From Limnomonas spitsbergensis (taxonomy: Eukaryota > Chlorophyta > Chlorophyceae > Chlamydomonadales): DNA of 64,000 nucleotides. Positions 1-51,125 of this stretch are shown here, one piece after another (within the stretch, counting starts at the first letter, position 1; each line of letters opens with the position of its first letter). Position numbers and translations under genes: made by a program. The stretch lies in contig JAYJMM010000009.1 in NCBI GenBank assembly GCA_037349105.1, forward strand, positions 3,265,001 to 3,329,000. The letters are read 5' to 3'. The notes beneath the pieces were generated by a model that made no database searches, was not told the origin of the DNA, and worked only from the letters and a program-made list of their open reading frames with translations.

Positions 1-288
1 CTGCTTGAAACCACCAACCTACCAGCAACCACTTGTACTGCCTGCAGCCACTCCCATATAGCTTAACCTGCAGCCATATGTACTGCCTCCCCACCCTCCC
101 ACCACCACCACCACCACAACACACACACACAAACGCCTGCAACCACTTGTACTGCTTCAGGCCTGCCTCAATCCAGCCAAACCTGTAACCATCCGTGCTG
201 CCTCCAACCCCTTGCAATCACTCGTACTGCCTGCAGCCGCCCTCCATCCACCCCAGCGTGCAACCAACCGGACTGCCTCCACTCCCAC
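1..288 (-). repeat. Start of phosphatase intron 9 with degenerate copies of the exon 9 donor end
   Basis: On the plus strand the motif cactcgtactgcctc and close variants recur about seven times (near 30, 70, 145, 205, 225, 270, 300). It is the reverse complement of the coding end of exon 9 (residues RQYEW). The intron therefore carries imperfect copies of the adjacent exon end. A short CA-rich stretch lies at about 105-130. The gene continues to the left of the window. Confidence 0.65.
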
Positions 289-701
289 CTGTAACCACTC
301 GTACTGCCTCGAGCCTGCCTCCAGATTGTGCTCCGACGACACCACCGTGAAGTGCACGATGCCGTAATCGAAAGAGTACCAGAATGGCGGGTTGTCCGAC
401 GGCCCGAAGTAGCCCACACCGCCATCCGCAGGCGCAGAGGCGGACGCATCATCAGAAGCGCCCAAAACGTCCCCGCTGCCATCAGACGAGGAGGATGTGG
501 AGAAGGAGATTGGGCCGTCGGAGTCACTGCCCGTGCGCAACACTTGCTCTTGTTGTTGTTGTTGTTGTTGCTGCACCTGTTGTTCTCCTTGTTGGTGTTG
601 TTGTTGCTGCGGTTCCTCCGAGACGGCGGAACGGCGATGCAAGCTTGTAGCCAAGGGGCCGTCATCGCCTCTACTGGTGGCACGTGGGGCATTGGACGCA
701 C
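289..701 (-). CDS. Phosphatase exon 9 (polyQ/S insertion plus FWYSFDYG block)
   Basis: The exon has 413 nt and encodes residues 339 (split codon) to 476. The acceptor is ccctcaatccccag before 701; the donor is cag|gtggga after 289. The first ~100 residues are low complexity: two Q runs, then S/D/A-rich sequence. Then come FWYSFDYGIVHF and SSEH..AGSRQYEWLQ, which in the family follow the GGECG block and precede the VxxH metal ligand. The entry phase (two nucleotides) matches the one nucleotide left by exon 8. An open frame continues past the exon end into the intron repeats, but the family homology stops at the donor. Confidence 0.88.
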
Positions 702-3700
702 CTGGGGATTGAGGGCAGAAGAAACATTATGGGTCATCAAGTGTTTAAGGAGGGTTGGGGGTTTAGGGCTAAGGGTGAAAGGAGCGTTATGGGTCATCAA
801 GTGTTCAAGGAGGGTTGGGGGTTTAGGGCTAAGGGTGAAAGAAGCGATGTGGGTCATCAAGTGTAAAAGGAGGGTTGGGGGTTTAGGGCTAAGGGTGAAA
901 GGAGCGTTATGGGCCATAAAGTGTTAAAGGAGGGTTGGGGGTTTAGGGCAAAGGGTGAAAGGGGCGTTGTGGGTCATCAAGTGTAAAAGGAGGGTTGGGG
1001 GTTTAGGGCTAAGGGTGAAAGGAGCGTTGTGGGTCATCAAGTGTTAAAGGAGGGTTGGGGGTTTAGGGCAAAGGGTGAAAGGAGCGTTGTGGGTCATCAA
1101 GTGTAAAATGAGGGTTGGGGGTTTGGGGCAAAGGGTGAATGGGGCGTTATGGGTCATCAAGTGTTAAAGGAGGGTTGGGGGTTTAGGGCTAAGGGTGAAA
1201 GGAGCGTTATGGGCCATAAAGTGTTTAAGGAGGGTAGGGGGTTTAGGGCAAAGGGTGAAAGGAGCGTTGTGGGTCATCAAGTGTTAAAGGAGGGTTGGGG
1301 GTTTGGGGCAAAGGGTGAAAGGGGCGTTATGGGTCGTCAAGTGTTAAAGGAGGGTTGGGGGTTTAGGGCTAAGGGTGAAAGGAGCGTTGTGGGTCATCAA
1401 GTGTTGAAGGAGGGTAGGGGGTTTGGGGCAAAGGGTGAATAGGGCGTTATGGGTCATCAAGTGTTTAAGGAGGGTTGGGGGTTTAGGGCAAAGGGTGAAA
1501 GGAGCGTTGTGGGTCATCAAGTGTTAAAGGAGGGTTATGGGTTTAGGGCTAAGGGTGAAAGGGGCGTTGTGGGTCATCAAGTGTTAAAGGAGGGTTGGGG
1601 GTTTAGGGCTAAGGGTGAATGGGGCGTTGTGGGTCATCAAGTGTTAAAGGAGGGTTGGGGGTTTAGGGCAAAGGGTGAAAGGAGCGTTGTGGGTCATCAA
1701 GTGTTTAAGGAGGGTTGGGGGTTTAGGGCAAAGGGTGAAAGGAGCGTTGTGGGTCATCAAGTGTAAAATGAGGGTTGGGGGTTTAGGGCAAAGGGTGAAA
1801 GGGGCGTTGTGGGTCATCAAGTGTAAAAGGAGGGTTGGGGGTTTAGGGCTAAGGGTGAAAGGAGCGTTGTGGGTCATCAAGTGTTAAAGGAGGGTTGGGG
1901 GTTTAGGGCAAAGGGTGAATGGAGCGTTGTGGGTCGTCAAGTGTTAAAGGAGGGTTGGGGGTTTAGGGCTAAGGGTGAAAGGAGCGTTATGGGTCATCAA
2001 GTGTTTAAGGAGGGTAGGGGGTTTAGGGCAAAGGGTGAAAGGAGCGTTGTGGGTCATCAAGTGTTGAAGGAGGGTTGGGGGTTTGGGGCAAAGGGTGAAA
2101 GGGGCGTTATGGGTCGTCAAGTGTTAAAGGAGGGTTGGGGGTTTAGGGCTAAGGGTGAAAGGAGCGTTGTGGGTCATCAAGTGTTGAAGGAGGGTAGGGG
2201 GTTTGGGGCAAAGGGTGAATAGGGCGTTATGGGTCATCAAGTGTTAAAGGAGGTTGGGGGTTTAGGGCTAAGGGTGAAAGGAGCGTTGTGGGTCATCAAG
2301 TGTTAAAGGAGGGTTATGGGTTTAGGGCTAAGGGTGAAAGGGGCGTTGTGGGTCATCAAGTGTTAAAGGAGGGTTGGGGGTTTAGGGCTAAGGGTGAATG
2401 GGGCGTTGTGGGTCATCAAGTGTTAAAGGAGGGTTGGGGGTTTAGGGCAAAGGGTGAAAGGAGCGTTGTGGGTCATCAAGTGTTTAAGGAGGGTTGGGGG
2501 TTTAGGGCAAAGGGTGAAAGGAGCGTTGTGGGTCATCAAGTGTTAAAGGAGGGTTGGGGGTTTAGGGCTAAGGGTGAAAGGGGCGTTGTGGGTCATCAAG
2601 TGTTAAAGGAGGGTTGGGGGTTTAGGGCTAAGGGTGAAAGGAGCGTTGTGGGTCGTCAAGTGTTAACGGAGGGTTGGGGGTTTGGGGCAAAGGGTGAATG
2701 GGGCGTTATGGGTCATCAAGTGTTTAAGGAGGGTTGGGGGTTTAGGGCAAAGGGTGAAAGGAGCGTTGTGGGTCATCAAGTGTTAAAGGAGGGTTGGGGG
2801 TTTAGGGCTAAGGGTGAATGGGGCGTTATGGGTCATCAAGTGTTAAAGGAGGGTTGGGGGTTTAGGGCAAAGGGTGAAAGGAGCGTTATGGGCCATAAAG
2901 TGTTTAAGGAGGGTAGGGGGTTTAGGGCAAAGGGTGAAAGGAGCGTTGTGGGTCATCAAGTGTTAAAGGAGGGTTGGGGGTTTAGGGCTAAGGGTGAAAG
3001 GGGCGTTGTGGGTCATCAAGTGTTAAAGGAGGGTTGGGGGTTTAGGGCTAAGGGTGAAAGGAGCGTTGTGGGTCATCAAGTGTTAAAGGAGGGTTGGGGG
3101 TTTGGGGCAAAGGGTGAATGGGGCGTTATGGGTCATCAAGTGTTAAAGGAGGGTTGGGGGTTTAGGGCTAAGGGTGAAAGGAGCGTTATGGGCCATAAAG
3201 TGTTTAAGGAGGGTAGGGGGTTTAGGGTAAAGGGTGAAAGGAGCGTTGTGGGTCATCAAGTGTTAAAGGAGGGTTGGGGGTTTGGGGCAAAGGGTGAAAG
3301 GGGCGTTATGGGTCGTCAAGTGTTAAAGGAGGGTTGGGGGTTTAGGGCTAAGGGTGAAAGGAGCGTTGTGGGTCATCAAGTGTTGAAGGAGGGTAGGGGG
3401 TTTGGGGCAAAGGGTGAATAGGGCGTTATGGGTCATCAAGTGTTAAAGGAGGGTTGGGGGTTTAGGGCTAAGGGTGAAAGGAGCGTTGTGGGTCATCAAG
3501 TGTTAAAGGAGGGTTATGGGTTTAGGGCTAAGGGTGAAAGGGGCGTTGTGGGTCATCAAGTGTTAAAGGAGGGTTGGGGGTTTAGGGCTAAGGGTGAATG
3601 GGGCGTTGTGGGTCATCAAGTGTTAAAGGAGGGTTGGGGGTTTAGGGCAAAGGGTGAAAGGAGCGTTGTGGGTCATCAAGTGTTAAAGGAGGGTTGGGGG

Positions 3701-6700
3701 TTTAGGGCAAAGGGTGAAAGGAGCGTTGTGGGTCATCAAGTGTAAAAGGAGGGTTGGGGGTTTGGGGCAAAGGGTGAATGGGGCGTTGTGGGTCATCAAG
3801 TGTTAAAGGAGGGTTGGGGGTTTAGGGCAAAGGGTGAAAGGAGCGTTGTGGGTCATCAAGTGTTTAAGGAGGGTTGGGGGTTTAGGGCAAAGGGTGAAAG
3901 GAGCGTTGTGGGTCATCAAGTGTTAAAGGAGGGTTGGGGGTTTAGGGCTAAGGGTGAAAGGAGCGTTGTGGGTCATCAAGTGTTAAAGGAGGGTTGGGGG
4001 TTTAGGGCTAAGGGTGAAAGGAGCGTTGTGGGTCGTCAAGTGTTAACGGAGGGTTGGGGGTTTGGGGCAAAGGGTGAATGGGGCGTTATGGGTCATCAAG
4101 TGTTTAAGGAGGGTTGGGGGTTTAGGGCAAAGGGTGAAAGGAGCGTTGTGGGTCATCAAGTGTTAAAGGAGGGTTGGGGGTTTAGGGCTAAGGGTGAATG
4201 GGGCGTTATGGGTCATCAAGTGTTAAAGGAGGGTTGGGGGTTTAGGGCAAAGGGTGAAAGGAGCGTTGTGGGTCATCAAGTGTTTAAGGAGGGTTGGGGG
4301 TTTAGGGCAAAGGGTGAAAGGAGCGTTGTGGGTCATCAAGTGTTAAAGGAGGGTTGGGGGTTTAGGGCTAAGGGTGAAAGGGGCGTTGTGGGTCATCAAG
4401 TGTAAAAGGAGGGTTGGGGGTTTAGGGCTAAGGGTGAAAGGAGCGTTGTGGGTCATCAAGTGTTAAAGGAGGGTTGGGGGTTTGGGGCAAAGGGTGAATG
4501 GGGCGTTATGGGTCATCAAGTGTTTAAGGAGGGTAGGGGGTTTAGGGCTAAGGGTGAAAGGAGCGTTATGGGTCATCAAGTGTTAAAGGAGGGTTGGGGG
4601 TTTAGGGCAAAGGGTGAAAGGAGCGTTGTGGGTCATCAAGTGTTAAAGGAGGGTTGGGGGTTTGGGGCAAAGGGTGAAAGGGGCGTTATGGGTCGTCAAG
4701 TGTTAAAGGAGGGTTGGGGGTTTAGGGCTAAGGGTGAAAGGAGCGTTGTGGGTCATCAAGTGTTGAAGGAGGGTAGGGGGTTTGGGGCAAAGGGTGAATA
4801 GGGCGTTATGGGTCATCAAGTGTTAACGGAGGGTTGGGGGTTTAGGGCTAAGGGTGAAAGGAGCGTTGTGGGTCATCAAGTGTTAAAGGAGGGTTATGGG
4901 TTTAGGGCTAAGGGTGAAAGGGGCGTTGTGGGTCATCAAGTGTTAAAGGAGGGTTGGGGGTTTAGGGCTAAGGGTGAATGGGGCGTTGTGGGTCATCAAG
5001 TGTTAAAGGAGGGTTGGGGGTTTAGGGCAAAGGGTGAAAGGAGCGTTGTGGGTCATCAAGTGTTTAAGGAGGGTTGGGGGTTTAGGGCAAAGGGTGAAAG
5101 GAGCGTTGTGGGTCATCAAGTGTAAAATGAGGGTTGGGGGTTTAGGGCAAAGGGTGAAAGGGGCGTTGTGGGTCATCAAGTGTAAAAGGAGGGTTGGGGG
5201 TTTAGGGCTAAGGGTGAAAGGAGCGTTGTGGGTCATCAAGTGTTAAAGGAGGGTTGGGGGTTTAGGGCAAAGGGTGAAAGAAGCGTTGTGGGTCATCAAG
5301 TGTTAAAGGAGGGTTGGGGGTTTGGGGCAAAGGGTGAATGGGGCGTTATGGGTCATCAAGTGTTAAAGGAGGGTTGGGGGTTTAGGGCTAAGGGTGAAAG
5401 GAGCGTTATGGGCCATAAAGTGTTTAAGGAGGGTAGGGGGTTTAGGGCAAAGGGTGAAAGGAGCGTTGTGGGTCATCAAGTGTTAAAGGAGGTTGGGGGT
5501 TTAGGGCTAAGGGTGAATGGGGCGTTGTGGGTCATCAAGTGTTAAAGGAGGGTTGGGGGTTTAGGGCAAAGGGTGAAAGGAGCGTTGTGGGTCATCAAGT
5601 GTTTAAGGAGGGTTGGGGGTTTAGGGCAAAGGGTGAAAGGAGCGTTGTGGGTCATCAAGTGTAAAATGAGGGTTGGGGGTTTAGGGCAAAGGGTGAAAGG
5701 GGCGTTGTGGGTCATCAAGTGTAAAAGGAGGGTTGGGGGTTTAGGGCTAAGGGTGAAAGGAGCGTTGTGGGTCATCAAGTGTTAAAGGAGGGTTGGGGGT
5801 TTAGGGCTAAGGGTGAAAGGAGCGTTGTGGGTCATCAAGTGTTGAAGGAGGGTTGGGGGTTTGGGGCAAAGGGTGAAAGGGGCGTTATGGGTCGTCAAGT
5901 GTTAAAGGAGGGTTGGGGGTTTAGGGCTAAGGGTGAAAGGAGCGTTGTGGGTCATCAAGTGTTGAAGGAGGGTAGGGGGTTTGGGGCAAAGGGTGAATAG
6001 GGCGTTATGGGTCATCAAGTGTTAAAGGAGGTTGGGGGTTTAGGGCTAAGGGTGAAAGGAGCGTTGTGGGTCATCAAGTGTTAAAGGAGGGTTATGGGTT
6101 TAGGGCTAAGGGTGAAAGGGGCGTTGTGGGTCATCAAGTGTTAAAGGAGGGTTGGGGGTTTAGGGCTAAGGGTGAATGGGGCGTTATGGGTCATCAAGTG
6201 TTAAAGGAGGGTTGGGGGTTTAGGGCAAAGGGTGAAAGGAGCGTTGTGGGTCATCAAGTGTTTAAGGAGGGTTGGGGGTTTAGGGCAAAGGGTGAAAGGA
6301 GCGTTGTGGGTCATCAAGTGTTAAAGGAGGGTTGGGGGTTTAGGGCTAAGGGTGAAAGGGGCGTTGTGGGTCATCAAGTGTAAAATGAGGGTTGGGGGTT
6401 TAGGGCTAAGGGTGAAAGGAGCGTTGTGGGTCATCAAGTGTTAACGGAGGGTTGGGGGTTTGGGGCAAAGGGTGAATGGGGCGTTATGGGTCATCAAGTG
6501 TTTAAGGAGGGTTGGGGGTTTAGGGCAAAGGGTGAAAGGAGCGTTGTGGGTCATCAAGTGTTAAAGGAGGGTTGGGGGTTTAGGGCTAAGGGTGAATAGG
6601 GCGTTATGGGTCATCAAGTGTTAAAGGAGGGTTGGGGGTTTAGGGCTAAGGGTGAATGGGGCGTTGTGGGTCATCAAGTGTTAAAGGAGGGTTGGGGGTT

Positions 6701-9700
6701 TAGGGCAAAGGGTGAAAGGAGCGTTGTGGGTCATCAAGTGTTTAAGGAGGGTTGGGGGTTTAGGGCAAAGGGTGAAAGGAGCGTTGTGGGTCATCAAGTG
6801 TTAAAGGAGGGTTGGGGGTTTAGGGCTAAGGGTGAAAGGGGCGTTGTGGGTCATCAAGTGTAAAAGGAGGGTTGGGGGTTTAGGGCTAAGGGTGAAAGGA
6901 GCGTTGTGGGTCGTCAAGTGTTAACGGAGGGTTGGGGGTTTGGGGCAAAGGGTGAATGGGGCGTTATGGGTCATCAAGTGTTTAAGGAGGGTTGGGGGTT
7001 TAGGGCAAAGGGTGAAAGGAGCGTTGTGGGTCATCAAGTGTTAAAGGAGGGTTGGGGGTTTATAGCAAAGGGTGAAAGGAGCGTTGTGGGTCATCAAGTG
7101 TTAAATGAGGGTTGGGGGTTTAGGGCTAAGGGTGAAAGGAGCGTTGTGGGTCATCAAGTGTTAAAGGAGGGTTGGGGGTATAGGGCTAAGGGTGAAAGGA
7201 GCGTTGTGGGTCATCAAGTGTTAAAGGAGGGTTGGGGGTTTAGGGCAAAGGGTGTAAGGGGCGTTGTGGGTCATCAAGTGTTAAATGAGGGTTGGGGGTT
7301 TATGGCTAAGGGTGAAAGGAGCGTTGTGGGTCATCAAGTGTTAAAGTAGGGTTGGGGGTTTAGGGCTAAGGGTGAAAGGAGCGTTGTGGGTCATCAAGTG
7401 TTTAAGGAGGGTTGGGGGTTTAGGGCAAAGGGTGAAAGGAGCGTTGTGGGTCATCAAGTGTTAAAGGAGGGTTGGGGGTTTAGGGCTAAGGTTGAAAGGG
7501 GCGTTATGGGTCATCAAGTGTTAAAGGAGGGTTGGGGGTTTAGGGCTAAGGGTGAAAGGAGCGTTGTGGGTCATCAAGTGTTCAAGGAGGGTTGGGGGTT
7601 TAGGGCAAAGGGTGGAAGGAGCGTTGTGGGTCATCAAGTGTTAAAGGAGGGTTGGGGGTTTAGGGCTAAGGGTGAAAGGGGCGTTGTGGGTCATCAAGTG
7701 TAAAAGGAGGGTTGGGGGTTTAGGGCTAAGGGTGAAAGGAGCGTTGTGGGTCATCAAGTGTTAAAGGAGGGTTGGGGGTTTGGGGCAAAGGGTGAATGGG
7801 GCGTTATGGGTCATCAAGTGTTAAAGGAGGGTTGGGGGTTTAGGGCTAAGGGTGAAAGGAGCGTTATGGGCCATCAAGTGTTTAAGGAGGGTAGGGGGTT
7901 TAGGGCAAAGGGTGAAAGGAGCGTTGTGGGTCATCAAGTGTTAAAGGAGGGTTGGGGGTTTGGGGCAAAGGGTGAAAGGGGCGTTATGGGTCGTCAAGTG
8001 TTAAAGGAGGGTTGGGGGTTTAGGGCTAAGGGTGAAAGGAGCGTTGTGGGTCATCAAGTGTTGAAGGAGGGTAGGGGGTTTGGGGCAAAGGGTGAATAGG
8101 GCGTTATGGGTCATCAAGTGTTAACGGAGGGTTGGGGGTTTAGGGCTAAGGGTGAAAGGAGCGTTGTGGGTCATCAAGTGTTAAAGGAGGGTTATGGGTT
8201 TAGGGCTAAGGGTGAAAGGGGCGTTGTGGGTCATCAAGTGTTAAAGGAGGGTTGGGGGTTTAGGGCTAAGGGTGAATGGGGCGTTGTGGGTCATCAAGTG
8301 TTAAAGGAGGGTTGGGGGTTTAGGGCAAAGGGTGAAAGGAGCGTTGTGGGTCATCAAGTGTTTAAGGAGGGTTGGGGGTTTAGGGCAAAGGGTGAAAGGA
8401 GCGTTGTGGGTCATCAAGTGTAAAATGAGGGTTGGGGGTTTAGGGCAAAGGGTGAAAGGGGCGTTGTGGGTCATCAAGTGTAAAAGGAGGGTTGGGGGTT
8501 TAGGGCTAAGGGTGAAAGGAGCGTTGTGGGTCATCAAGTGTTAAAGGAGGGTTGGGGGTTTAGGGCAAAGGGTGAAAGAAGCGTTGTGGGTCATCAAGTG
8601 TTAAAGGAGGGTTGGGGGTTTGGGGCAAAGGGTGAATGGGGCGTTATGGGTCATCAAGTGTTAAAGGAGGGTTGGGGGTTTAGGGCTAAGGGTGAAAGGA
8701 GCGTTATGGGCCATAAAGTGTTTAAGGAGGGTAGGGGGTTTAGGGCAAAGGGTGAAAGGAGCGTTGTGGGTCATCAAGTGTTAAAGGAGGTTGGGGGTTT
8801 AGGGCTAAGGGTGAATGGGGCGTTGTGGGTCATCAAGTGTTAAAGGAGGGTTGGGGGTTTAGGGCAAAGGGTGAAAGGAGCGTTGTGGGTCATCAAGTGT
8901 TTAAGGAGGGTTGGGGGTTAAGGGCAAAGGGTGAAAGGAGCGTTGTGGGTCATCAAGTGTAAAATGAGGGTTGGGGGTTTAGGGCAAAGGGTGAAAGGGG
9001 CGTTGTGGGTCATCAAGTGTTTAAGGAGGGTTGGGGGTTTAGGGCTAAGGGTGAAAGGAGCGTTGTGGGTCATCAAGTGTTAAAGGAGGGTTGGGGGTTT
9101 AGGGCTAAGGGTGAAAGGAGCGTTGTGGGTCATCAAGTGTTGAAGGAGGGTTGGGGGTTTGGGGCAAAGGGTGAAAGGGGCGTTATGGGTCGTCAAGTGT
9201 TAAAGGAGGGTTGGGGGTTAAGGGCTAAGGGTGAAAGGAGCGTTGTGGGTCATCAAGTGTTGAAGGAGGGTAGGGGGTTTGGGGCAAAGGGTGAATAGGG
9301 CGTTATGGGTCATCAAGTGTTAAAGGAGGTTGGGGGTTTAGGGCTAAGGGTGAAAGGAGCGTTGTGGGTCATCAAGTGTTAAAGGAGGGTTATGGGTTTA
9401 GGGCTAAGGGTGAAAGGGGCGTTGTGGGTCATCAAGTGTTAAAGGAGGGTTGGGGGTTTAGGGCTAAGGGTGAATGGGGCGTTGTGGGTCATCAAGTGTT
9501 AAAGGAGGGTTGGGGGTTTAGGGCAAAGGGTGAAAGGAGCGTTGTGGGTCATCAAGTGTTTAAGGAGGGTTGGGGGTTTAGGGCAAAGGGTGAAAGGAGC
9601 GTTGTGGGTCATCAAGTGTTAAAGGAGGGTTGGGGGTTTAGGGCTAAGGGTGAAAGGGGCGTTGTGGGTCATCAAGTGTTAAAGGAGGGTTGGGGGTTTA

Positions 9701-12700
9701 GGGCTAAGGGTGAAAGGAGCGTTGTGGGTCATCAAGTGTTAACGGAGGGTTGGGGGTTTGGGGCAAAGGGTGAATGGGGCGTTATGGGTCATCAAGTGTT
9801 TAAGGAGGGTTGGGGGTTTAGGGCAAAGGGTGAAAGGAGCGTTGTGGGTCATCAAGTGTTAAAGGAGGGTTGGGGGTTTAGGGCTAAGGGTGAATAGGGC
9901 GTTATGGGTCATCAAGTGTTAAAGGAGGGTTGGGGGTTTAGGGCAAAGGGTGAAAGGAGCGTTGTGGGTCATCAAGTGTTTAAGGAGGGTTGGGGGTTTA
10001 GGGCAAAGGGTGAAAGGAGCGTTGTGGGTCATCAAGTGTTAAAGGAGGGTTGGGGGTTTAGGGCTAAGGGTGAAAGGGGCGTTGTGGGTCATCAAGTGTT
10101 AAAGGAGGGTTGGGGGTTTAGGGCTAAGGGTGAAAGGAGCGTTGTGGGTCATCAAGTGTTAAAGGAGGGTTGGGGGTTTAGGGCAAAGGGTGAAAGGAGC
10201 GTTGTGGGTCATCAAGTGTTAAAGGAGGGTTGGGGGTTTGGGGCAAAGGGTGAATGGACCGTTATGGGTCATCAAGTGTTCAAGGAGGGTTGGGGGTTTA
10301 GGGCTAAGGGTGAAAGGAGCGTTGTGGGTCATCAAGTGTTAAAGGAGGGTTGGGGGTTTATAGCAAAGGGTGAAAGGAGCGTTGTGGGTCATCAAGTGTT
10401 AAATGAGGGTTGGGGGTTTAGGGCTAAGGGTGAAAGGAGCGTTGTGGGTCATCAAGTGTTAAAGGAGGGTTGGGGGTATAGGGCTAAGGGTGAAAGGAGC
10501 GTTGTGGGTCATCAAGTGTTAAAGGAGGGTTGGGGGTTTAGGGCAAAGGGTGTAAGGGGCGTTGTGGGTCATCAAGTGTTAAATGAGGGTTGGGGGTTTA
10601 TGGCTAAGGGTGAAAGGAGCGTTGTGGGTCATCAAGTGTTAAAGTAGGGTTGGGGGTTTAGGGCTAAGGGTGAAAGGAGCGTTGTGGGTCATCAAGTGTT
10701 TAAGGAGGGTTGGGGGTTTAGGGCAAAGGGTGAAAGGAGCGTTGTGGGTCATCAAGTGTTAAAGGAGGGTTGGGGGTTTAGGGCTAAGGTTGAAAGGGGC
10801 GTTATGGGTCATCAAGTGTTAAAGGAGGGTTGGGGGTTTAGGGCTAAGGGTGAAAGGAGCGTTGTGGGTCATCAAGTGTTCAAGGAGGGTTGGGGGTTTA
10901 GGGCAAAGGGTGGAAGGAGCGTTGTGGGTCATCAAGTGTTAAAGGAGGGTTGGGGGTTTAGGGCTAAGGGTGAAAGGGGCGTTGTGGGTCATCAAGTGTT
11001 AAAGGAGGGTTAAGGGTTTAGGGCTAAGGGTGAAAGGAGCGTTGTGGGTCATCAAGTGTTAAAGGAGGGTTGGGGGTTTAGGGCAAAGGGTGAATGGGGC
11101 GTTGTGGGTCATCAAGTGTTTAAGGAGGGTTGGGGGTTTAGGGCTAAGGGTGAAAGGAGCGTTGTGGGTCATCAAGTGTTAAATGAGGGTTGGGGGTTTA
11201 TGGCTAAGGGTGAAAGGAGCGTTGTGGGTCATCAAGTGTTAAAGGAGGGTTGGGGGTTTAGGGCTAAGGGTGAAAGGAGCGTTGTGGATCATCAAGTGTT
11301 CAAGGAGGGTTGGGGGTTTAGGGCAAAGGGTGAAAGGAGCGTTGTGGGTCATCAAGTGTTAAAGGAGGGTTGGGGGTTTAGGGCTAAGGTTGAAAGGGGC
11401 GTCATGGGTCATCAAGTGTTAAAGGAGGGTTGGGGGTTTAGGGCTAAGGGTGAAAGGAGCGTTGTGGGTCATCAAGTGTTATATGAGGGTTGGGGGTTTA
11501 GGGCAAAGGGTGAAAGGAGCGTTATGGGTCATCAAGTGTAAAAGGAGGGTTGGGGGTTTAGGGCTAAGGGTGAAAGGGGCGTTGTGGGTCATCAAGTGTT
11601 TAAGGAGGGTTGGGGGTTTAGGGCAAAGGGTGAAAGGAGCGTTGTGGGTCATCAAGTGTTAAAGGGGGGTTGGGGGTTTAGGGCTAAGGGTGAAAGGGGC
11701 GTTGTGGGTCATCAAGTGTTAAATGAGGGTTGGGGGTTTAGGGCTAAGGTTGAAAGGAGCGTTGTGGGTTGAGGGTTTAGAGGAGGTCGTGGGTGCGCAA
11801 TCTATAATTCGCACCCCTTTTCATTTGAAGAGACTCTTTTCATTTTAGTTGTCCCCTTTCTCTTTCCAGGCCATCATCTCCTCTGCTTGAGGTAGCATGT
11901 GGGGGCCTTGGAGGGTACAGGTTTCAGGGTTTGGGGTGCAGGGTTAAGGGTTTAGGGTTAATGATAAACAACCCATAATTCACACCCTTTTATGTTTTAG
12001 GAGTGCCCTTTCTGTTCCAGGGCCGTCATCCCCTCTACTGGAATAAGCATATGGGGCATATGAGGCACCTGCGGGTAGGGGTTCAGGGTTCAGGGTTCAA
12101 GGTAGAGGGTTGTAGGTTCTGGGTTGCGGGTTCAGGGTTGAAGGTTCAGGCCTTCAGGGTAGAGGGTTGCGGGTTGCGGGTTCAGGGGTTCAGGGTTCAG
12201 GGTTACTGATAAGCAATCCACAATTCACCTCCTTTCCTGTTCCAGAAGAGCACTTTCTGTTTCAAGAGTCCCCTTTCTGTTCCAGGGGCCTCTTCCTGTT
12301 CCAAGGAGTCCCCTTTCTGTTCCAAGGAGTCCCCTTTCTGTTCCAAGGAGTCCCCTTTCTGTTCCAAGGAGTCCCCTTTCTGTTCCAAGGAGTCCCCTTT
12401 CTGTTCCAGGGGCCTCTTCCTGTTCCAAGGAGTCCCCTTTCTGTTCCAAGGAGTCCCCTTTCTGCTCCAAGGAGTCCCCTTTCTGTTCCAAGGAGTCCAC
12501 TTTCTGTTCCAAGGAGTCCCCTTTCTGTTCCAAGGAGTCCCCTTTCTGTTCCAAGGAGTCCCCTTTCTGTTCCAAGGAGTCCCCTTTCTGTTCCAAGGAG
12601 TCCCCTTTCTGTTCCAAGGTGTCCCCTTTCTGTTCCAAGGAGTCCCCTTTCTGTTCCAAGGAGTCCCCTTTCTGTTCCAAGGAGTCCCCTTTCTGCTCCA

Positions 12701-27655: not shown

Positions 27656-27659
27656 AACG

Positions 27660-30982: not shown

Positions 30983-31379
30983 ATGTCAAAGCAACACGAC
31001 TGGCACGCGATGCATGACGAGCGCTTCCTGCTCTCTGGGGCCGACTACCCGACGGTCTACATCGGGGACCAACAGCCCTCGTCTCCAGATCACACTTACG
31101 GTCCCAGGTCTCCCTCCACTGTCGCCTACTCCACTGGCAGTACACGGGGCGGCATGAGGAGCGTTCAGCACCTGCAAGACATGGACGACGTGGAGGCTGC
31201 AGCATCGTATGAGCAGCTCAGACGAACACGGCTCGATACGCCACAGCAAAAGCAGCACCAACAGCTGTATCAGCAACAACAGCAACAACAGCAGCATCAG
31301 GAGGAGCAGACCTACCTCAGCTCAGGGTCAGCTTTCGAGCAACCTGCAAGATTCCCACAACAGACCCAGCAACAGCCAC

Positions 31380-31416
<37 letters not shown>

Positions 31417-31545
31417 GCCGGTATCTGCCCCGCGGCCGACCGCTCCAGCCTCTCAGGGCATGATGGCTGCAACAGTCTCTTCTAGCCACAAGACGAAGGG
31501 AGCTTACTCCCCAGCCCCCAAAGAGAAGCGCCCTGCCTCTGCAAG
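30983..31545 (+). CDS. Coiled-coil gene exon 1 (polyQ N-terminus)
   Basis: The ATG at 30983 opens MSKQHDWHAMHDERFLLSGA; in-frame sequence upstream has no better start. The exon has two glutamine runs and ends KEKRPASA plus AG before the donor gcaag|gtgtgg. Read-through would enter the GGACAT repeat and encode RRWTWTWA, then stop. The final part is duplicated at 19815-20047. Confidence 0.78.
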
Positions 31546-46500: not shown

Positions 46501-49500
46501 TGTAGCTGAATCACCCTGGCTGTGGGCCGTCATGCTGCTGAATTGTAGCTGAATCACCCTGGCTGTGGGCCGTCATGCTGCTGAATTGTAGCTGAATCAC
46601 CCTGGCTGTGGGCCGTCATGCTGCTGAATTGTAGCTGAATCACCCTGGCTGTGGGCCGTCATGCTGCTGAATTGTAGCTGAAACACCCTGGCTGTGGGCC
46701 GTCATGCTGCTGAATTGCAGCTTAATCACCCTGGCTGTGGGCCGTTATGCTGCTGAATTGTAGCTGAATCACCCTGGCTGTGGGCCGTCATGCTTCTGAA
46801 TTGTAGCTGAATCACCCTGGCTGTAGGCCGTCATGCTGCTGAATTGTAGCTTAATCACTCTGGCTGTGGGCCGTCATGCTGCTGAATTGTAGCTGAATCA
46901 CCCTGGCTGTGGGCCGTCATGCTGCTGAATTGTAGCTGAATCACCCTGGCTGTAGGCCGTTATGCTGCTGAAGTGTAGCTGAATCACCCTGGCTGTAGGT
47001 TGCCGTGCTGCTAAATTGTAGCTGAATCACCCTGGCTGTAGGCCGTCTTGCTGCTGAATTGTAGCTGAATCACCCTGACTGTAGGCCGTCATGCTGCTGA
47101 ATTGCAGCTGAATCACCCTGACTGTAGGCCGTCTTGCTGCTGAATTGTAGCTGAATCACCCTGGCTGTAGGCTGTCGTGTAGCTGAATTGTAGCTGAATC
47201 ACCCTGGCTGTAGGCTGCCGTGCTGCTAAATTGTAGCTGAATCATTCTGGCTGTAGGCCGTCTTGCTGCTGAATTGTAGCTGAATCACCCTGGCTGTGGG
47301 CCGTCGTGTAGCTGAATTGCAGCTGAATCACCCTGGAATTAACTGTGTCCGTCTTGATTATGAGTGCAGGCAGTACATCTGCTGGCCCAAGGGGAGGCGA
47401 CTACGCGCAAGGCCATGGCGCACAGGTGGGACTTAATGGATGGGGGACGCAGGGTTTAATGTTTAGGGTTGGAGGTAAGGGGTAAGGGTCGGGGTCAGGG
47501 TAAGAGCAAGGGGTTAGGGTCAGGGTCAGGGTCAGGGTCAGGGTTAGGGATGGAGTTGGGGTTGGGGTCAGGGTCAGTGTTGGGTAGCTTGGTCGATACT
47601 GAAAGGCTGGTAGAAAGATGGGTAGCCTGGTCGATGCTAAAAGGCTGGTAGAAAGATAGGTAGCTTGGTCGATGTTGAAAGGCTGGTAGAAAGATGGGTA
47701 GCCTGGTCGATGCTAAAAGGCTGGTAGAAAGATAGGTAGCTTGGTCGATGTTGAAAGGCTGGTAGAAAGATGGGTAGCCTGGTCGATGCTGAAAGGCTGG
47801 TAGAAAGATGGGTAGCTTGGTCAATGTTGAAAGGCTGGTAGAAAGATGTGTAGCCTGGTCGATCCTGAAAGGCTGGTAGAAAGATGGGTAGCCTGGTCGA
47901 TGCTGAAAGGCTGGTAGAAAGATGTGTAGCCTGGTCGATCCTGAAAGGCTGGTAGAAAGATGTGTAGCCTGGTCGATCCTGAAAGGCTGGTAGAAAGATG
48001 GGTAGGCTGGTCGATGCTGAAAGGCTGGTAGAAAGATGTGTAGCCTGGTCGATCCTGAAAGGCTGGTAGAAAGATGGGTAGGCTGGTCGATGCTGAAAGG
48101 CTGGTAGAAAGATGGGTAGCCTGGTCGATGCTAAAAGGCTGGTAGAATGATGGGTAGCCTGGTCGATGCTGAAAGGCTGGTAGGAAGATGGGTAGCCAGG
48201 TCGATGCTGAAAGGCTGGTAGGAACATGGGTAGCCAGGTCGATGCTGAAAGGCTGGTAGAAAGATGGGTAGCCAGGTCGATGCTGAAAGATTGGTAGAAA
48301 GATGGGTAGCCTGGTCGATGCTGAAAGGCTGGTAGAAAGATGGGTAGCCTGGTCGATCCTGAAAGGCTGGTAGAAAGATGGGTAGCTTGGTCGATACTGA
48401 AAGGCTGGTAGAAAGATGGGTAGCTTGGTCGATGCTGAAAGGCTGGTAGGAAGATGGGTAGCCTGGTCGATGCTGAAAGGCTGGTAGAAAGATGGGTAGC
48501 CTGGTTGATGCTGAAAGGCTGGTAAAAAGATGGGTAGCTTGGTCGATGCTGAAAGACTGGTAGCAAGACGGGTAGACTGGTACGATGCTGAAAGACTGGT
48601 AGAAAGATGGGTAGCCTGGTCGATGCTGAAAGACTGGTAGAAAGATGGGTAGCCTGGTTGGGGTCAGGGTCATAGTCTGGGTTATAGGTTGGGAATCGGG
48701 CTAGGGCTGGGGTAAGGGGTTGGGGTAGGGGTTAGGGGTTTGGGTTATTGGTTGGGATTAGGGGCTGGGGTTAGGAGGTAGGGTTAGGGGTTAGGGTTCA
48801 GAGTCTCAATATCACAGGTGTTATACAAGCATAGGGCATGATTAGGGCCTTGTTAAGGGTTGTGGTAGGGGTTAGGGTTTTAGGGTTTAGGGTTCAGAAT
48901 TGGGATTCAGGGTGATAAGATCACGGGGGTCGTAGACTAGAGCACGCTTAGGTTACCTTCGTTAAAGCAAGGGCGGTGTCTTGACTTCAAATTCGAATTG
49001 AAAAGCCGCCCCGAAAATTCAAAAGCTCGGAACCTCTCACAGGGCTTTTCAGCTTCGCGATGATCTACATCACATTGAGGGACAGGCCTCAAGTTGAATT
49101 TAAAAATCCTTCCCGCAGGGCTTTCAGCTTCGCAACGACCGTTGCTGAAGCAAGGGACGTGCCTTAATTTTAATTTCAAACTCGAATGCCCATCACAGGG
49201 TTTATCAGCTGCTCGACTGCCTACGTCACAGCAAGGGAATTCCTTCAACATTCAAAATCAAAATGCCCACCGTAGGGCTTTTCAGCGTCGGGTCGCCTTG
49301 AGTCACAGCGAGGGACCTGCTGTGATTTCAAATTCAAATTCAAAAATGCCCACCGCAGGGCTTTTCAGCTTCGTGATGGCCTGCGTCACAGCGAGGGTCG
49401 GGCCCGGGAGCTTGCAGAGGGTCAGCGGCGGCATCAGTTTGAGGTGGGGTCTGAATGGATCTGAATGGATCTGGATAACCACCGGATGAGGTCCTGGACA

Positions 49501-50359
49501 GATTTGTAAATAAATGCTAGGGTTCAGGGTTCAGGGTTTGGGGTCAAAACCCTGTAGTGTGAATTAAAGCAGGCACACTCGTGTCTGACATTTGCATTTG
49601 GGATCATGGCTGCATCCCTGCCAGATCATTAAATGAATGAACATGTACTGCAGCATCAATACCGAGACAAACAAACAAACAAACAAAACAGACAAACAAA
49701 CAAACAAACAAAACAAACAAGCATACAAGAAATGTACTCGTAAACACCTCCCATCGTCTATCTTAAGCTGCTGCAGACAGAGGCGATGGAGAACCTGCAC
49801 TAGCTACTGAGTTACATTTGCGTAACGCAATATTCACGCACTCCCATCCCCTATCCCATGCTGCTGCAGACAAACGGGCGATGGAGAAGCTGCACTTCCT
49901 TTTTGTGACAGGCACTAGTTTCACATTAGTCACAAACCCTCCCCTCCCCTCCCCTCCCCTCCCCTGCCCTGCCCTGCCCCGCCCTGCCCTGCCCTGCCCT
50001 GCCCTGCCCTGCCCTGCCCTGCCCTGCCCTGCCCTGCCCTGCCCTGCCCTGCCCTGCCCTGCCCTGCCCTGCCCTGCCCATGCTGCTGCAGAAACGGACC
50101 AGGGAGAAGCTGCACTAGCTATTCACTTACATTTACATACCGCAGTATTCACCCCCACCGCCCCCTCCCCTTACATACCGCAGTATTCACCCCCACCGCC
50201 CCCTCCCCTTACATACCGCAGTATTCACCCCCACCGCCCCCTCCCCTTTCCCCACTGCTGCAGACGCGAGCCAGGGAGAAGCTGCACTCTGAAAGGCTGG
50301 CATTTGAGAAGGCCGGGATGGAGCTGCACCACACCAGCCAGCTGCAGGCTGTACACGCA
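30983..50359 (+). CDS. Unrecognised polyQ / coiled-coil protein, eight exons, continues past the right edge
   Basis: Joined exons: 30983-31545, 34214-34321, 37793-37904, 39102-39161, 39455-39559, 47370-47425, 49359-49443, 50264-50359, totalling 1185 nt (395 residues) with no stop. All junctions are GT-AG and every phase matches. Residues 1-187 are disordered, with Q runs at about 97-104 and 134-144 and an S/P/K-rich tail. Then come IDYTSKYVGDPPVCEL and a long E/Q/A/L/R-rich body (REYILDQAHHIKHLQLQ, LGEAAWRLEAQLRD, LDLQTRLSRAETALRLAEQA, REKLHSERLAFEKAGMEL) that looks like coiled coil. I do not recognise the family; a cytoskeletal, centrosomal or flagellar structural role would be a guess. Intron 8 exceeds 13.6 kb. 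No stop codon or 3' end is in the window. The model rests on phase agreement and composition, not on homology. Confidence 0.75.
31560..31815. repeat. GGACAT / GGGCAT hexamer microsatellite
   Basis: Start of intron 1 of the coiled-coil gene. About 35-40 copies of ggacat with interspersed gggcatgaggtgttgg. Both strands are open across it (MDMDMD, WTWTWT, HVHVHV), which is an artefact. Confidence 0.97.
31850..34213 (+). repeat. About 60-120-bp repeats copying the exon 2 acceptor
   Basis: Intron 1 of the coiled-coil gene. From about 32300 some 24 units contain gaacatgtgaccccaccccc, ctctgcttccccag, ctctcgccaggcgcccgttc and a ccctctctgacactcac block. The last copy leads into the real acceptor (ctcccccag) and exon 2 (CTCTCACCAGGCGCCGGTGC). 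Each unit thus contains an acceptor plus ~20 nt of exon start. Units before 32300 are more diverged. Confidence 0.92.
34214..34321 (+). CDS. Coiled-coil gene exon 2
   Basis: The exon has 108 nt. After the split Ser it reads SHQAPVPGLAIDYTSKYVG, then DPPVCELNPSTPSQQI, and ends AG before gtgcgg. One nucleotide in and two out match exons 1 and 3. No domain recognised. Confidence 0.75.
34316..34495 (+). repeat. 20-bp array copying the exon 2 donor
   Basis: About nine copies of atcaggtgcggtgcagcctg start at the exon 2 donor (aaatcag|gtgcgg). Each copy repeats the donor and also offers a gtgcag acceptor-like site. Confidence 0.93.
34745..35037. repeat. 23-bp array (gccttgtggcctgccttgca)
   Basis: About 12 copies in intron 2 of the coiled-coil gene, with tgccctgtgg and ttgcgcc variants. 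Open frames on both strands are artefacts. Confidence 0.94.
35060..35195. repeat. Degenerate CCCTGAACCCTAAACC tract
   Basis: Plus-strand runs of aaccctataccctg, cctgaaccctaaacc and similar, telomere-like but imperfect. It lies in intron 2. Confidence 0.65.
35328..35425. repeat. 19-bp short array (gttcgttctgtttgtggcg)
   Basis: About five copies with tacgtcctgtttg variants in intron 2 of the coiled-coil gene. Around it (35200-36230) I see no gene. Confidence 0.85.
36236..36540. repeat. 23-bp array (aatgtaccatgcactatgct + ctc)
   Basis: About 13 copies in intron 2 of the coiled-coil gene, with one short unit (cttaagtacc). Looser relatives continue to about 36640. The 324-codon frame crossing it is an artefact. 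Confidence 0.95.
36715..37115. repeat. About 30-bp degenerate repeat (gtagcacacattgacaggtc)
   Basis: Around 13 diverged copies with cagcatggctgtagcac in intron 2 of the coiled-coil gene. From 37116 to 37630 nothing specific is seen. Confidence 0.85.
37636..37690 (+). pseudogene. Duplicate copy of the exon 3 start
   Basis: After the acceptor-like ctcatgcacag, GGACTACGGCGAGTACATTC and the following ~30 nt closely match the start of exon 3 at 37793 (DYGEYILDHAHHI versus DYREYILDQAHHI). It lacks the second half and a clear donor. It is a junction duplication or an abandoned alternative exon. Confidence 0.75.
37793..37904 (+). CDS. Coiled-coil gene exon 3
   Basis: The exon has 112 nt: DYREYILDQAHHIKHLQLQ, then VGQIQENTSAASEGVQEK. 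The acceptor is cctcttgagcag; the donor is gaaaag|gtgggc. One nucleotide in (Arg completed) and phase 0 out. The composition suits a helical coiled coil. Confidence 0.78.
37905..38540 (+). repeat. G-rich degenerate repeats with copies of the exon 3 end
   Basis: Intron 3. At about 38217-38252 cctccgaaggggtacagg copies the exon 3 end. Segments with cttcttaaagtggaaaa, gtgggtgggag and poly-G recur about four times to 38540. Confidence 0.7.
38526..38760. repeat. Pair of ~60-bp direct repeats
   Basis: Passages from about 38528 and 38675 share gacctcgactatcaatacat and gatgctggcgtcaacggtcc. The spacer has ccccacggggcgtagctttc. They could be short terminal repeats of a small non-autonomous element. 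Confidence 0.6.
38845..39100 (+). repeat. Two degenerate copies of the exon 4 acceptor
   Basis: At about 38850-38890 and 38955-39010, tctgatagcagatcgtcaaa and ccgattgcacattgtcgaat match the exon 4 boundary (tctgattgcag|atcgtgcaat), each followed by a gggagaagctgcc remnant. Confidence 0.78.
39102..39161 (+). CDS. Coiled-coil gene exon 4
   Basis: A 60-nt exon, phase 0 at both ends: IVQLGEAAWRLEAQLRDSNQ. The acceptor is tctctgattgcag; the donor is caaccag|gtgtga. Strong heptad-like pattern. Confidence 0.76.
39455..39559 (+). CDS. Coiled-coil gene exon 5
   Basis: A 105-nt exon, phase 0 at both ends: VVLDLQTRLSRAETALRLA, then EQAASSAANECVDLGQ. The acceptor is tctttccctgcag; the donor is gggcag|gtgtgg. 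Alanine- and leucine-rich helix. Confidence 0.78.
39560..40084. other. Start of intron 5, no gene recognised
   Basis: Includes a short CCCTAAACCCTAAA tract (39865-39880) and, just after, aggttaatattcctg, which resembles a conserved LSU rRNA segment but is too short to call. Confidence 0.4.
40085..47335 (+). repeat. 43-bp tandem array, about 168 copies, in intron 5
   Basis: The unit contains gaattgtagctgaatcaccc, tggctgtgggccgtcatg and ctgct. Variants (gtaggc, gtcttgctgctg, gtgtagctg, cttaatcac) recur in blocks; atgcttctgaattg recurs 3569 bp apart (43221 and 46790). The end of the intron (actgtgtccgtcttgatt, gagtgcag) resembles a diverged unit (gactgtaggccgtcttgctg, gaattgcag), so the array may derive from the exon 6 acceptor. 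Confidence 0.95.
47370..47425 (+). CDS. Coiled-coil gene exon 6
   Basis: A 56-nt exon: AVHLLAQGEATTRKAMAH plus AG. The acceptor is tgagtgcag; the donor is cacag|gtggga. Phase 0 in and two nucleotides out match exons 5 and 7. It is short and without homology, so it rests on phase and splice sites. Confidence 0.62.
47455..47590. repeat. GGGTCAGGGTTAGGG tract
   Basis: Start of intron 6. Six-base repeats (gggtca, ggggtt, gggtta) resemble degenerate telomere repeats. Confidence 0.7.
47590..48660. repeat. 38-bp minisatellite (inverse of 18845-19435)
   Basis: About 28 copies of a 38-bp unit with ggctggtagaaagatgggta and gcctggtcgatgctgaaa. It is the reverse complement of the array in phosphatase intron 4, yet has the same orientation relative to its own host gene. 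Confidence 0.95.
48661..48930. repeat. GGGTTAGGGGTTGGGG telomere-like tract
   Basis: Intron 6. Runs of ggggttaggg, gggtttaggg and gggttcag on the plus strand, degenerate. Confidence 0.65.
48955..49358 (+). repeat. About 100-bp repeats copying the exon 7 acceptor
   Basis: Four units contain an attcaaa block, aatgcccaccgcag-like acceptor, ggcttttcagcttcg (exon 7 start), a gcctacgtcacagcgaggga copy of the following exon sequence, and a T/A-rich part. They lead into the true exon 7. Confidence 0.87.
49359..49443 (+). CDS. Coiled-coil gene exon 7
   Basis: An 85-nt exon: after the split Arg, AFQLRDGLRHSEGRAREL, then AEGQRRHQFE. The acceptor is gcccaccgcag; the donor is tttgag|gtgggg. A second AG (cttttcag) ten bases downstream is out of phase with exon 6. 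Confidence 0.7.
49444..50263 (+). repeat. Intron 7: CAAA and CCCTG microsatellites and copies of the exon 8 acceptor
   Basis: A (CAAA)n tract lies at about 49670-49722, (CCCTG)n at about 49938-50080, and three ~38-bp units (ccgcagtattcacccccacc) at 50138-50245. The exon 8 acceptor plus first codons is copied at about 49770-49803, 49860-49897 and 50080-50118: gctgctgcagac or gctgctgcagaa, then gagaagctgcac. Confidence 0.87.
50264..50359 (+). CDS. Coiled-coil gene exon 8
   Basis: A 96-nt exon, phase 0 at both ends: TRAREKLHSERLAFEKAG, then MELHHTSQLQAVHA. The acceptor is cactgctgcag; the donor gca|gtaagt is near consensus. Strongly helical. The next exon is beyond the window. Confidence 0.78.
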
Positions 50360-50479
50360 GTAAGTATCGATCCAAGATTGCACCATTCTAACATAATGGC
50401 CAAAAAGGGGCACCATTTTTTTGTTCGTCCATACGTCCATACGTAGAAATTGTACCATTCATCCAGAACGGCGTAAATC

Positions 50480-51125
50480 ATGCGGTGGTGGGCATTGAGC
50501 AGCACCACTCCATCCAGCTGCATGCTGTGGTGGGGATTGAGCAGCACCACTCCATCCAGCTGCATGCTGTGGTGGGGATTGAGCAGCACCCCTCCATCCA
50601 GATGCAGGCTGTGGTGGGGATTGAGCAGCACCCCTCCATCCAGATGCAGGCTGTGGTGGGGATTGAGCAGCACCCCTCCATCCAGATGCAGGCTGTGGTG
50701 GGGATTGAGCAGCACCACTCCATCCAGATGCAGGCTGTGGTGGGGATTGAGCAGCACCACTCCATCCAGCTGCATCCTGTTGTGGGGATTGAGCAGCACC
50801 CCTCCATCCAGATGCAGGCTGTGGTGGGGATTGAGCAGCACCCCTCCATCCAGATGCAGGCTGTGGTGGGGATTGAGCAGCACCCCTCCATCCAGATGCA
50901 GGCTGTACACACAGGAAATGACAATCCTCGCAAGAAATGCCCCTTTGTCCATAAATCATGCTGTTGGGATGCGTACATCATGCTGTGGGGATGCGTACAT
51001 CATGCCGTGGGGTGGGTAGGATGTGGGGATGCGTCCATGAATCATAATGTTGGGATGCGTACATCATGCTGTGGGGATTGAGCAGCACCCCTCCAGTGAG
51101 CTGCAGGCTGTACACGCGGTGAGTG
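50480..51125 (+). repeat. 42-bp array copying the end of exon 8, with a final copy bearing a donor
   Basis: Ten units of 42 bp (14 codons) contain gggattgagcagcacccctc and catccagatgcaggctgtgg. They translate as GIEQHHSIQLHAVV, similar to the exon 8 end GMELHHTSQLQAVHA. One copy at about 50905 has a mutated donor (ggaaat); the last, at 51080-51120, has gtacacgcg|gtgagt. Confidence 0.92.

Follow-up and report, generated by a model that had tools for sequence, protein, structure and literature searches.

The window, the 64,000-nucleotide stretch of the Limnomonas spitsbergensis contig analyzed here, contains two genes whose models were rebuilt before the copy analysis: a coiled-coil-like (CC) gene on the forward strand, for which exons 1-9 were placed, and a purple-acid-phosphatase-like (PAP) gene on the reverse strand, for which exons 2-8 were placed and exon 1 is tentative (Table 1). 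The joined reading frames of both genes are open and the splice sites are GT-AG throughout except for one GC donor, properties that are partly by construction because exon boundaries were picked with open-frame and GT-AG rules in view. Independent support came from tblastn matches to algal homologues, which cover six of the seven placed PAP exons and CC exons 2-9. These alignments argue against wrong exon boundaries as the cause of the patterns described below, except at PAP exon 3 and the tentative PAP exon 1, and the open frames together with the alignment of most exons to homologues predict that both proteins have been kept despite the duplications. One small exon may be missing from the model between PAP exons 3 and 4. 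The 19-bp repeat beside PAP exon 7 is intronic, since homologue P0001 puts the donor at the GC site 3 nt before it. The models yield 31 junctions and 17 introns, 3 of the latter being covered only in part by the window or the model. A Pfam search of the CC gene and an Rfam search at the gathering threshold gave no match, no relatives were found when genome-contig and viral-contig collections were searched by protein, one exact 36-base pattern was absent from viral contigs, and megablast of one 1,075-base stretch found nothing among plasmids.

Table 1. Exons, tandem arrays and junction copies in the window (positions are those of the window)
Feature	Position	Strand	Support
CC exon 1, poly-Q rich	30983..31545	+	open frame, AAG|GTGTGG donor; weak tblastn match 31076-31135, E=0.16
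CC exon 2	34214..34321	+	tblastn, Chlamydomonas eustigma P0019, 75% over 32 aa
CC exon 3	36638..36742	+	tblastn P0019, 78% over 41 aa
CC exon 4	37793..37904	+	tblastn P0019, P0020
CC exon 5 (60 nt)	39102..39161	+	tblastn P0019, 59% over 22 aa, weak, E=0.021
CC exon 6	39455..39559	+	tblastn P0019, 66% over 38 aa
CC exon 7	47370..47425	+	tblastn P0019, 55% over 29 aa, weak, E=0.029; frame
CC exon 8	49359..49443	+	tblastn P0019, 60% over 35 aa
CC exon 9	50264..50359	+	tblastn P0019, 48% over 33 aa
Array, 82-bp unit with CC exon 2 acceptor and 15-18 exon nt, 22 copies	32300..34185	+	
Array, 20-bp unit with CC exon 2 donor, 5 exon nt	34317..34494	+	
Array, 29-bp unit, final 17 nt of CC exon 3 and donor	36726..37112	+	
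Degenerate copy, CC exon 4 acceptor and 39 exon nt	37607..37669	+	
Degenerate copy, CC exon 4 end and donor	38207..38311	+	
Two degenerate copies, CC exon 5 acceptor, at most 26 exon nt	38848..39001	+	
Repeated CC exon 8 acceptor and ~39 exon nt, 83-bp period in part	48987..49397	+	
Copies, CC exon 9 acceptor and start	49767..50263	+	
Copies of CC exon 9 end, including 42-bp array	50485..51125	+	
Intergenic stretch almost without tandem copies	24385..30982	.	33/6598 bases in arrays of period at least 10
PAP exon 1, tentative; signal-peptide-like ORF start	24302..24384	-	ORF listing, donor guessed by eye; no homologue match
PAP exon 2	21942..22006	-	tblastn P0006, 59% over 22 aa, weak, E=0.014
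PAP exon 3	20737..20857	-	frame and splice sites only; no tblastn row
PAP exon 4	17454..17605	-	tblastn P0003, P0005 and others
PAP exon 5, HVGDLSYG block	16606..16691	-	tblastn
PAP exon 6	15677..15750	-	tblastn P0005, 72% over 25 aa
PAP exon 7, GC donor	12939..13116	-	tblastn P0001, 65% over 60 aa; donor set by P0001 MPSGASN
PAP exon 8	289..701	-	tblastn P0001, 82% over 45 aa
Degenerate 119-125 bp copies, some with PAP exon 2 acceptor and start	22029..23325	-	
Array, 44-bp unit reaching PAP exon 3 acceptor, 3 exon nt	20855..21445	-	
Copies, PAP exon 3 end and donor	20470..20673	-	
Array, 124-bp unit with PAP exon 4 acceptor	17571..18264	-	TRF array overlaps exon by 35 nt
Copies, PAP exon 5 acceptor and start	16838..17120	-	
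Array, 49-bp unit with AG|GT at PAP exon 7 acceptor (PAP intron 6), 33 decoy copies	13115..14702	-	
Copy, PAP exon 8 start and acceptor, 11.35 kb from the true one	11990..12080	-	
60-bp array, 184 copies, PAP intron 7	730..11769	-	
Array, 75-bp unit with PAP exon 8 end	136..323	-	TRF overlap 35 exon nt

Direct tandem copies crossing the exon-intron boundary were found at 16 of 31 junctions, distributed over 13 of 17 introns, which confirms the earlier note's claim that in at least ten introns the repeated unit is a copy of the neighboring boundary. When 40-nt probes containing exon sequence only were compared with the adjacent intron (200 shuffles each, p-values uncorrected), 12 of 31 junctions scored at p≤0.005 and 15 of 31 at p≤0.05, where ~1.6 were expected, and for none of these 15 did any of the 16 other introns score as high. 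The introns listed in the earlier note would match our models if its reader had placed one extra exon between PAP exons 3 and 4 (seven PAP introns) and had missed the 60-nt CC exon 5. The arrays detected by TRF consist of head-to-tail, slightly diverged copies of units of roughly 10-100 bp, as minisatellites do, and divergence is varied, a copy of two 49-bp units being identical at one extreme and degenerate copies being at 75-80% at the other. Three arrays, at the PAP exon 7 acceptor, the PAP exon 3 acceptor and the CC exon 2 donor, include only 2, 3 and 5 exon bases, respectively, and are therefore described as reaching the splice site rather than as copies of an exon edge. Junction-spanning copies were found in none of CC introns 2, 5 and 6 nor in PAP intron 5, and a copy of the PAP exon 6 donor is weak and has lost its GT.

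Within the gene models, the site used is the outer one and the additional copies lie inside the intron as decoys, up to 33 per junction, consistent with the earlier note's description of a true site at one end followed by a decoy tail. The AG or GT is intact in 60 of 68 junction-spanning copies, a number that led us to reject selection on decoys to lose these dinucleotides. The same number speaks for a role of the copies as alternative or recursive splice sites. Some units, moreover, contain AG|GT, a dual-specific form reported to act as a 5' or 3' site (PMC10809524). Retention of AG or GT per junction (0.83), however, exceeds by only a modest margin the 0.71 that flank identity would predict, the exon parts of the decoys have decayed in the alignments, and several array periods (20, 29, 49, 82 and 124) are not multiples of three, making functional decoys very unlikely.

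Arrays of period at least 10 occupy 42,974 of 54,940 intron bases (78%) and 194 of 2,462 exon bases, but only 33 of 6,598 intergenic bases (0.5%), and duplicated windows number 748 of 1177 in intron stretches (short internal exons included) versus 15 of 313 in intergenic DNA (24700-30950). Array position is thus tied to gene structure, at least as judged from one intergenic stretch, and departs from the position independence of ordinary minisatellites. Near the tentative PAP exon 1, duplication density has fallen to zero by 24.2 kb, and it goes up where CC exon 1 ends (31.4-31.6 kb). The intergenic stretch carries retroelement-like remains; of three intergenic ORFs searched separately against Pfam, two had no match and one had a sub-threshold match to a DUF. 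Telomere-like repeats were considered as a general seed for the arrays and rejected: the 7-mers are abundant in PAP intron 7 and seven of nine CC introns contain them, yet they total 1 in PAP introns 1-6 and 6 in the intergenic stretch.

A 30-nt window has a copy in its own intron in 18 of 31 cases at the junction and in 348 of 502 in the interior, with shares of 0.52-0.74 between +10 and +160; across these 31 junctions the profile has no peak at the junction. Copy share stays at ~0.5-0.75 in the intron and as far as the junction, drops across the first 60 exon nt, and is near zero deeper (1/19 at -80, 1/17 at -90, 1/7 at -130 and 1/5 at -140). We modeled uniform breakpoints with loss of exon-internal events and no junction term, using unit lengths read by hand from array listings and alignments. 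At the raw interior rate, the model predicts shares of.58/.51/.42/.35/.28/.22/.17 from 0 to -60 nt, compared with.58/.52/.32/.29/.23/.11/0 observed, thus accounting for much of the profile, although it overpredicts copies in the exon from 60 nt onward (0/23 at -60, p=0.014; 0/23 at -70, p=0.041; neighboring windows are not independent and p-values are uncorrected).

The earlier note had also proposed that introns grow by tandem duplication starting at junctions. Growth by tandem duplication, with units that often straddle the junction, is supported by the counts above; a start at junctions is not borne out by the profile, and the absence of a peak led us to reject junctions as strong duplication hot spots. 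The case for junction-started growth, in which something about splice junctions, acceptors above all, would set off tandem duplication (possible triggers being R-loops, slippage in polypyrimidine tracts or nicks at the splice site), depends on the interior rate, which is 0.69 raw and 0.46 (713/1546) when long arrays are no longer counted many times. Against the corrected rate, acceptor windows are in slight excess (11/15, p=0.03 uncorrected), whereas donors (7/16) are not and junctions overall show no clear excess (18/31, p=0.12). Among the 14 complete introns, acceptor ends are also more often duplicated than donor ends (0.80 vs 0.48, Wilcoxon p=0.051). Run at the corrected rate, the same model gives 0.37 for the junction and 0.31 for -10 nt, versus 0.58 and 0.52 observed (cumulative probabilities of the observed values, 0.996 and 0.995), so that under this rate a junction excess, led by acceptors, is possible. 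Part of any such excess would be expected, because one partner of each junction copy, the coding exon, is conserved and junction copies should therefore be easier to detect. With 31 junctions and no peak, initiation at junctions appears distinctly unlikely.

We consider it probable (roughly 0.7) that random-breakpoint tandem duplication across introns, combined with loss of exon-internal events, accounts for the junction arrays. Under this explanation, the CC and PAP introns would repeatedly take short tandem duplications, with units of ~12 to a few hundred bp and breakpoints roughly anywhere in the intron, and a surviving duplication could expand into an array and then decay. A duplication straddling a junction would spare the reading frame if the outermost site, the 3'-most acceptor or the 5'-most donor, were still used, with the surplus exon edge turning into intron, while duplications internal to an exon would add residues and be lost. 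Selection would presumably remove the exon events, and the outer site would be the one spliced. Arrays would thus look junction-built even though the junction would mainly be the edge of the tolerated zone. Replication slippage or end-joining repair would presumably give rise to the duplications themselves, which may be favored in transcribed DNA.

Random duplication everywhere leaves the clean intergenic stretch unexplained. Duplication coupled to transcription or splicing, and hence acting on transcribed DNA, would fill introns and not intergenic DNA, as the array and window counts and the positions at which density changes suggest; this coupling is compatible with random-breakpoint duplication and is possible, if on the unlikely side, given that the comparison involves a single intergenic stretch with retroelement-like remains and that density on the PAP side falls gradually (0.3, 0.2, 0) rather than stepwise. 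Tentatively, and with rather little confidence, the coupled process may be intron-limited, so that introns everywhere would become enlarged by decoy junctions while intergenic DNA is spared, leaving the spliceosome to select, each time, the outermost of many near-identical sites. Insertion in each intron of introner-like mobile elements that bring their own splice sites is extremely unlikely. Introners are families dispersed between genes, and, like the present arrays, they place repeated sequence bearing splice sites within introns. PAP intron 3 does share one 38-bp array family with CC intron 7, and it also contains a further occurrence of the CC exon 1 end together with the donor. The other junction copies, however, match their own intron best, and the units reproduce edges of host exons and are in most cases confined to a single intron. 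Blastn between the two genes, the only two compared, found one shared array family and one shared 215-bp stretch, rather than near-identical copies across many genes.

A literature search did not find this pattern described among the matches listed, most subscription journals lying outside its coverage. An exon-intron minisatellite in a human interferon-induced gene reportedly yields several donors. The closest precedent among those matches is the potato RdRp gene (PMC4974935), in which a single tandem duplication over an intron-exon boundary made a new intron, with most splice signals inherited from the parent junction; intron gain by tandem genomic duplication is attributed there to Rogers and to Hellsten 2011. 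In both cases the duplication crosses the boundary, but the potato case is one event creating an intron, whereas in the two genes of the present alga existing introns have been lengthened repeatedly (13/17 introns, up to 33 decoys per junction) and boundary-crossing duplication is the normal intron state. Human segmental duplications contain internal tandem repeats, minisatellites with a mean unit of ~30 bp, at exon-intron boundaries that may yield novel introns (PMC2812944); those are recent and comprise ~4 units totaling ~160 bp, while the present arrays have up to hundreds of units and affect most introns of both genes. The UBC gene (PMC10809524) likewise has tandem AG|GT arrays within a gene, but there the dual-specific splice site array marks off coding monomers and shows variable splicing, whereas the units described here are intronic and known from DNA alone. 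Long introns and abundant repeats are shared with the chlamydomonadalean genomes of Limnomonas, UWO241 and ICE-L: the excerpts available from PMC11228838 and PMC11247165 give mean intron lengths of 516-934 bp for CCCryo 101-99, Limnomonas and UWO241, repeat shares of 33% in Limnomonas, 49% in UWO and 64% in ICE-L, and a GC content of 54% in Limnomonas, and make no mention of junction copies or intron-limited arrays.

If the pattern is general in this genome, it would constitute an event-by-event record of intron lengthening, with junction copies preserved at differing stages of decay. It would also provide natural tests of spliceosomal choice where dozens of splice sites are nearly identical, and of whether tandem duplication follows transcription.

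Two genes lie back to back on opposite strands of the window. The purple-acid-phosphatase-like gene (PAP) carries a Metallophos domain (Pfam, E=1e-7) and has homologues in Trebouxia, Monoraphidium, Tetradesmus and Raphidocelis, among others; a Pfam search with the coiled-coil-like gene (CC) gave no match, and its relatives come from Chlamydomonas eustigma (59% identity), C. schloesseri and Pleodorina. These relatives suggest a chlamydomonadalean green alga as the source of the DNA. The joined exons of both genes give open frames throughout and GT-AG splice sites except for one apparent GC donor (exon end CAG, intron start GCGAGT), placed by an algal PAP homologue, P0001; boundaries were picked with frame and GT-AG in mind, so that both are partly by construction. 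Independent support comes from tblastn rows for six of the seven placed PAP exons and for CC exons 2-9, which are weak for PAP exon 2 (E=0.014) and CC exons 5 and 7 (E=0.02-0.03). PAP exon 3 was placed by frame and splice sites, and PAP exon 1 is a tentative model.

Features of the two genes, their introns and the DNA between them
Feature	Position	Strand	Description
PAP exons 2-8	22006 down to 289	-	placed; tblastn rows for all but exon 3
CC exons 1-9	30983 to 50359	+	placed; tblastn rows for exons 2-9
GC donor, PAP exon 7	12937-12939
PAP exon 7 copy	12774-12827		decayed copy of exon middle in next intron (tblastn, several homologues)
29-bp unit			CC exon 3 donor and final 17 exon bases
124-bp unit			PAP exon 4 acceptor and exon start
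CC exon 5 acceptor copies			two, degenerate; closer one 125 bp upstream
38-bp array	18840-19427		PAP intron 3
38-bp array	47581-48658		CC intron 7
215-bp copy	19810-20018		PAP intron 3, antisense to PAP; 86.5% copy of 31471-31682
26-bp array	51237-64000		CC intron 9, ~490 copies, reaching window end
Plant-type telomere repeat	39862, 48879, 51153, 51196		short perfect runs in CC introns
Broken ORFs	27800-29700	-	intergenic; reverse-transcriptase-like motifs, presumably retroelement-like

The earlier note held that the intron arrays contain copies of the adjoining exon-intron junction, and both exon-only probes and spanning copies (intron repeats holding both sides of a junction) show that they do. 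Among the 31 junctions of the two genes, 40-nt probes from exon ends matched the adjoining intron with p<=0.005 at 12 and p<=0.05 at 15, and at these 15 none of 16 other introns reached the own-intron score. With intron sequence added to the probes, spanning copies were found at 16/31 junctions and in 13/17 introns (none was found in CC introns 2, 5 and 6 or PAP intron 5), and AG or GT is intact in 60 of 68. The exon bases inside arrays can number just 2 (PAP exon 7), 3 (PAP exon 3) or 5 (CC exon 2 donor); the 19-bp repeat beside PAP exon 7 is intronic. The decayed PAP exon 7 copy comes from a deeper part of its exon than most copies.

The same note proposed that duplication starts at junctions. 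We scored each 30-nt window for a further copy in its own intron exceeding 40 shuffles (false-positive rate ~1/41). On the exon side, copies were found for 0/23 windows at -60, 3/27 at -50, 7/31 at -40 and 16/31 at -10, with single ones deeper (1/19 at -80, 1/17 at -90, 1/7 at -130, 1/5 at -140); the proportion was 18/31 at the junction, 0.52-0.74 up to +160 and 348/502 in intron interiors. The profile is an edge rather than a peak. A model with random breakpoints and loss of every exon-internal event, run at the raw interior rate, gives a curve much like that observed and overpredicts copies at -60 and -70. Because long arrays inflate the raw rate, we collapsed them, giving 713/1546 (0.46), against which acceptors (11/15) stand out and donors (7/16) do not; at this rate the model underpredicts the junction value (0.37 against 0.58 observed). 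Junction copies, however, should remain detectable longer, since they are compared with a conserved exon. As array inflation and exon conservation pull in opposite directions, a mild acceptor excess in duplication is possible; the duplicated share of intron ends was 0.80 for acceptors versus 0.48 for donors (14 introns, p=0.051).

Arrays with periods of at least 10 cover 42,974/54,940 intron bases, 194/2,462 exon bases and 33/6,598 intergenic bases, and duplicated windows number 15/313 in intergenic DNA versus 748/1,177 in three intron-rich stretches, including the short exons within them. Tandem duplication thus characterizes the introns of this window. Its density shifts near the first exons of PAP and CC, gradually on the PAP side. 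The nearly array-free intergenic DNA is a lead, not a law, because it is a single stretch with retroelement-like ORFs, which may be of any age and for which Pfam gave no confirmation. In Daphnia pulex too, introns have the highest overall repeat density, but they are much poorer than other regions in repeats with units >8 bp (PMC3152781), the reverse of the abundance of such repeats in the introns here.

Some sequences are shared between introns. The two 38-bp arrays are ~91% alike and inverted relative to each other in the window, hence in the same sense relative to each transcript. The 215-bp copy contains the end of CC exon 1, its donor and the intron start, and is dispersed rather than tandem. 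PAP intron 7 holds 612 plant-type telomere 7-mers, and the motif is present in the unit of its 60-bp array.

Earlier papers describe a single tandem duplication crossing an intron-exon boundary in a potato RdRp gene, with an older AGGT model and further single cases cited there (PMC4974935), and repeats at human exon-intron boundaries that may give rise to introns (PMC2812944). Internal duplication of genes is reported to be frequent (Gao and Lynch 2009, as cited elsewhere). Among the matches listed in the literature covered, we found no account of genes in which junction copying is the normal state of introns.

We propose, as the most likely course, that slippage or end joining would make short tandem duplications in intron DNA, many of which, from the pattern seen, appear to grow into arrays while others decay. 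PAP intron 7 is layered: a degenerate copy of the exon 8 start now lies 11.35 kb from the true one, with the 60-bp array (184 units) between them. Exon-internal events would be lost, as suggested by exon interiors nearly free of copies, and junction-crossing events would survive because the outermost splice site would be the one used; the spliceosome would pass over the decoys, despite the intact AG or GT that most of them keep.
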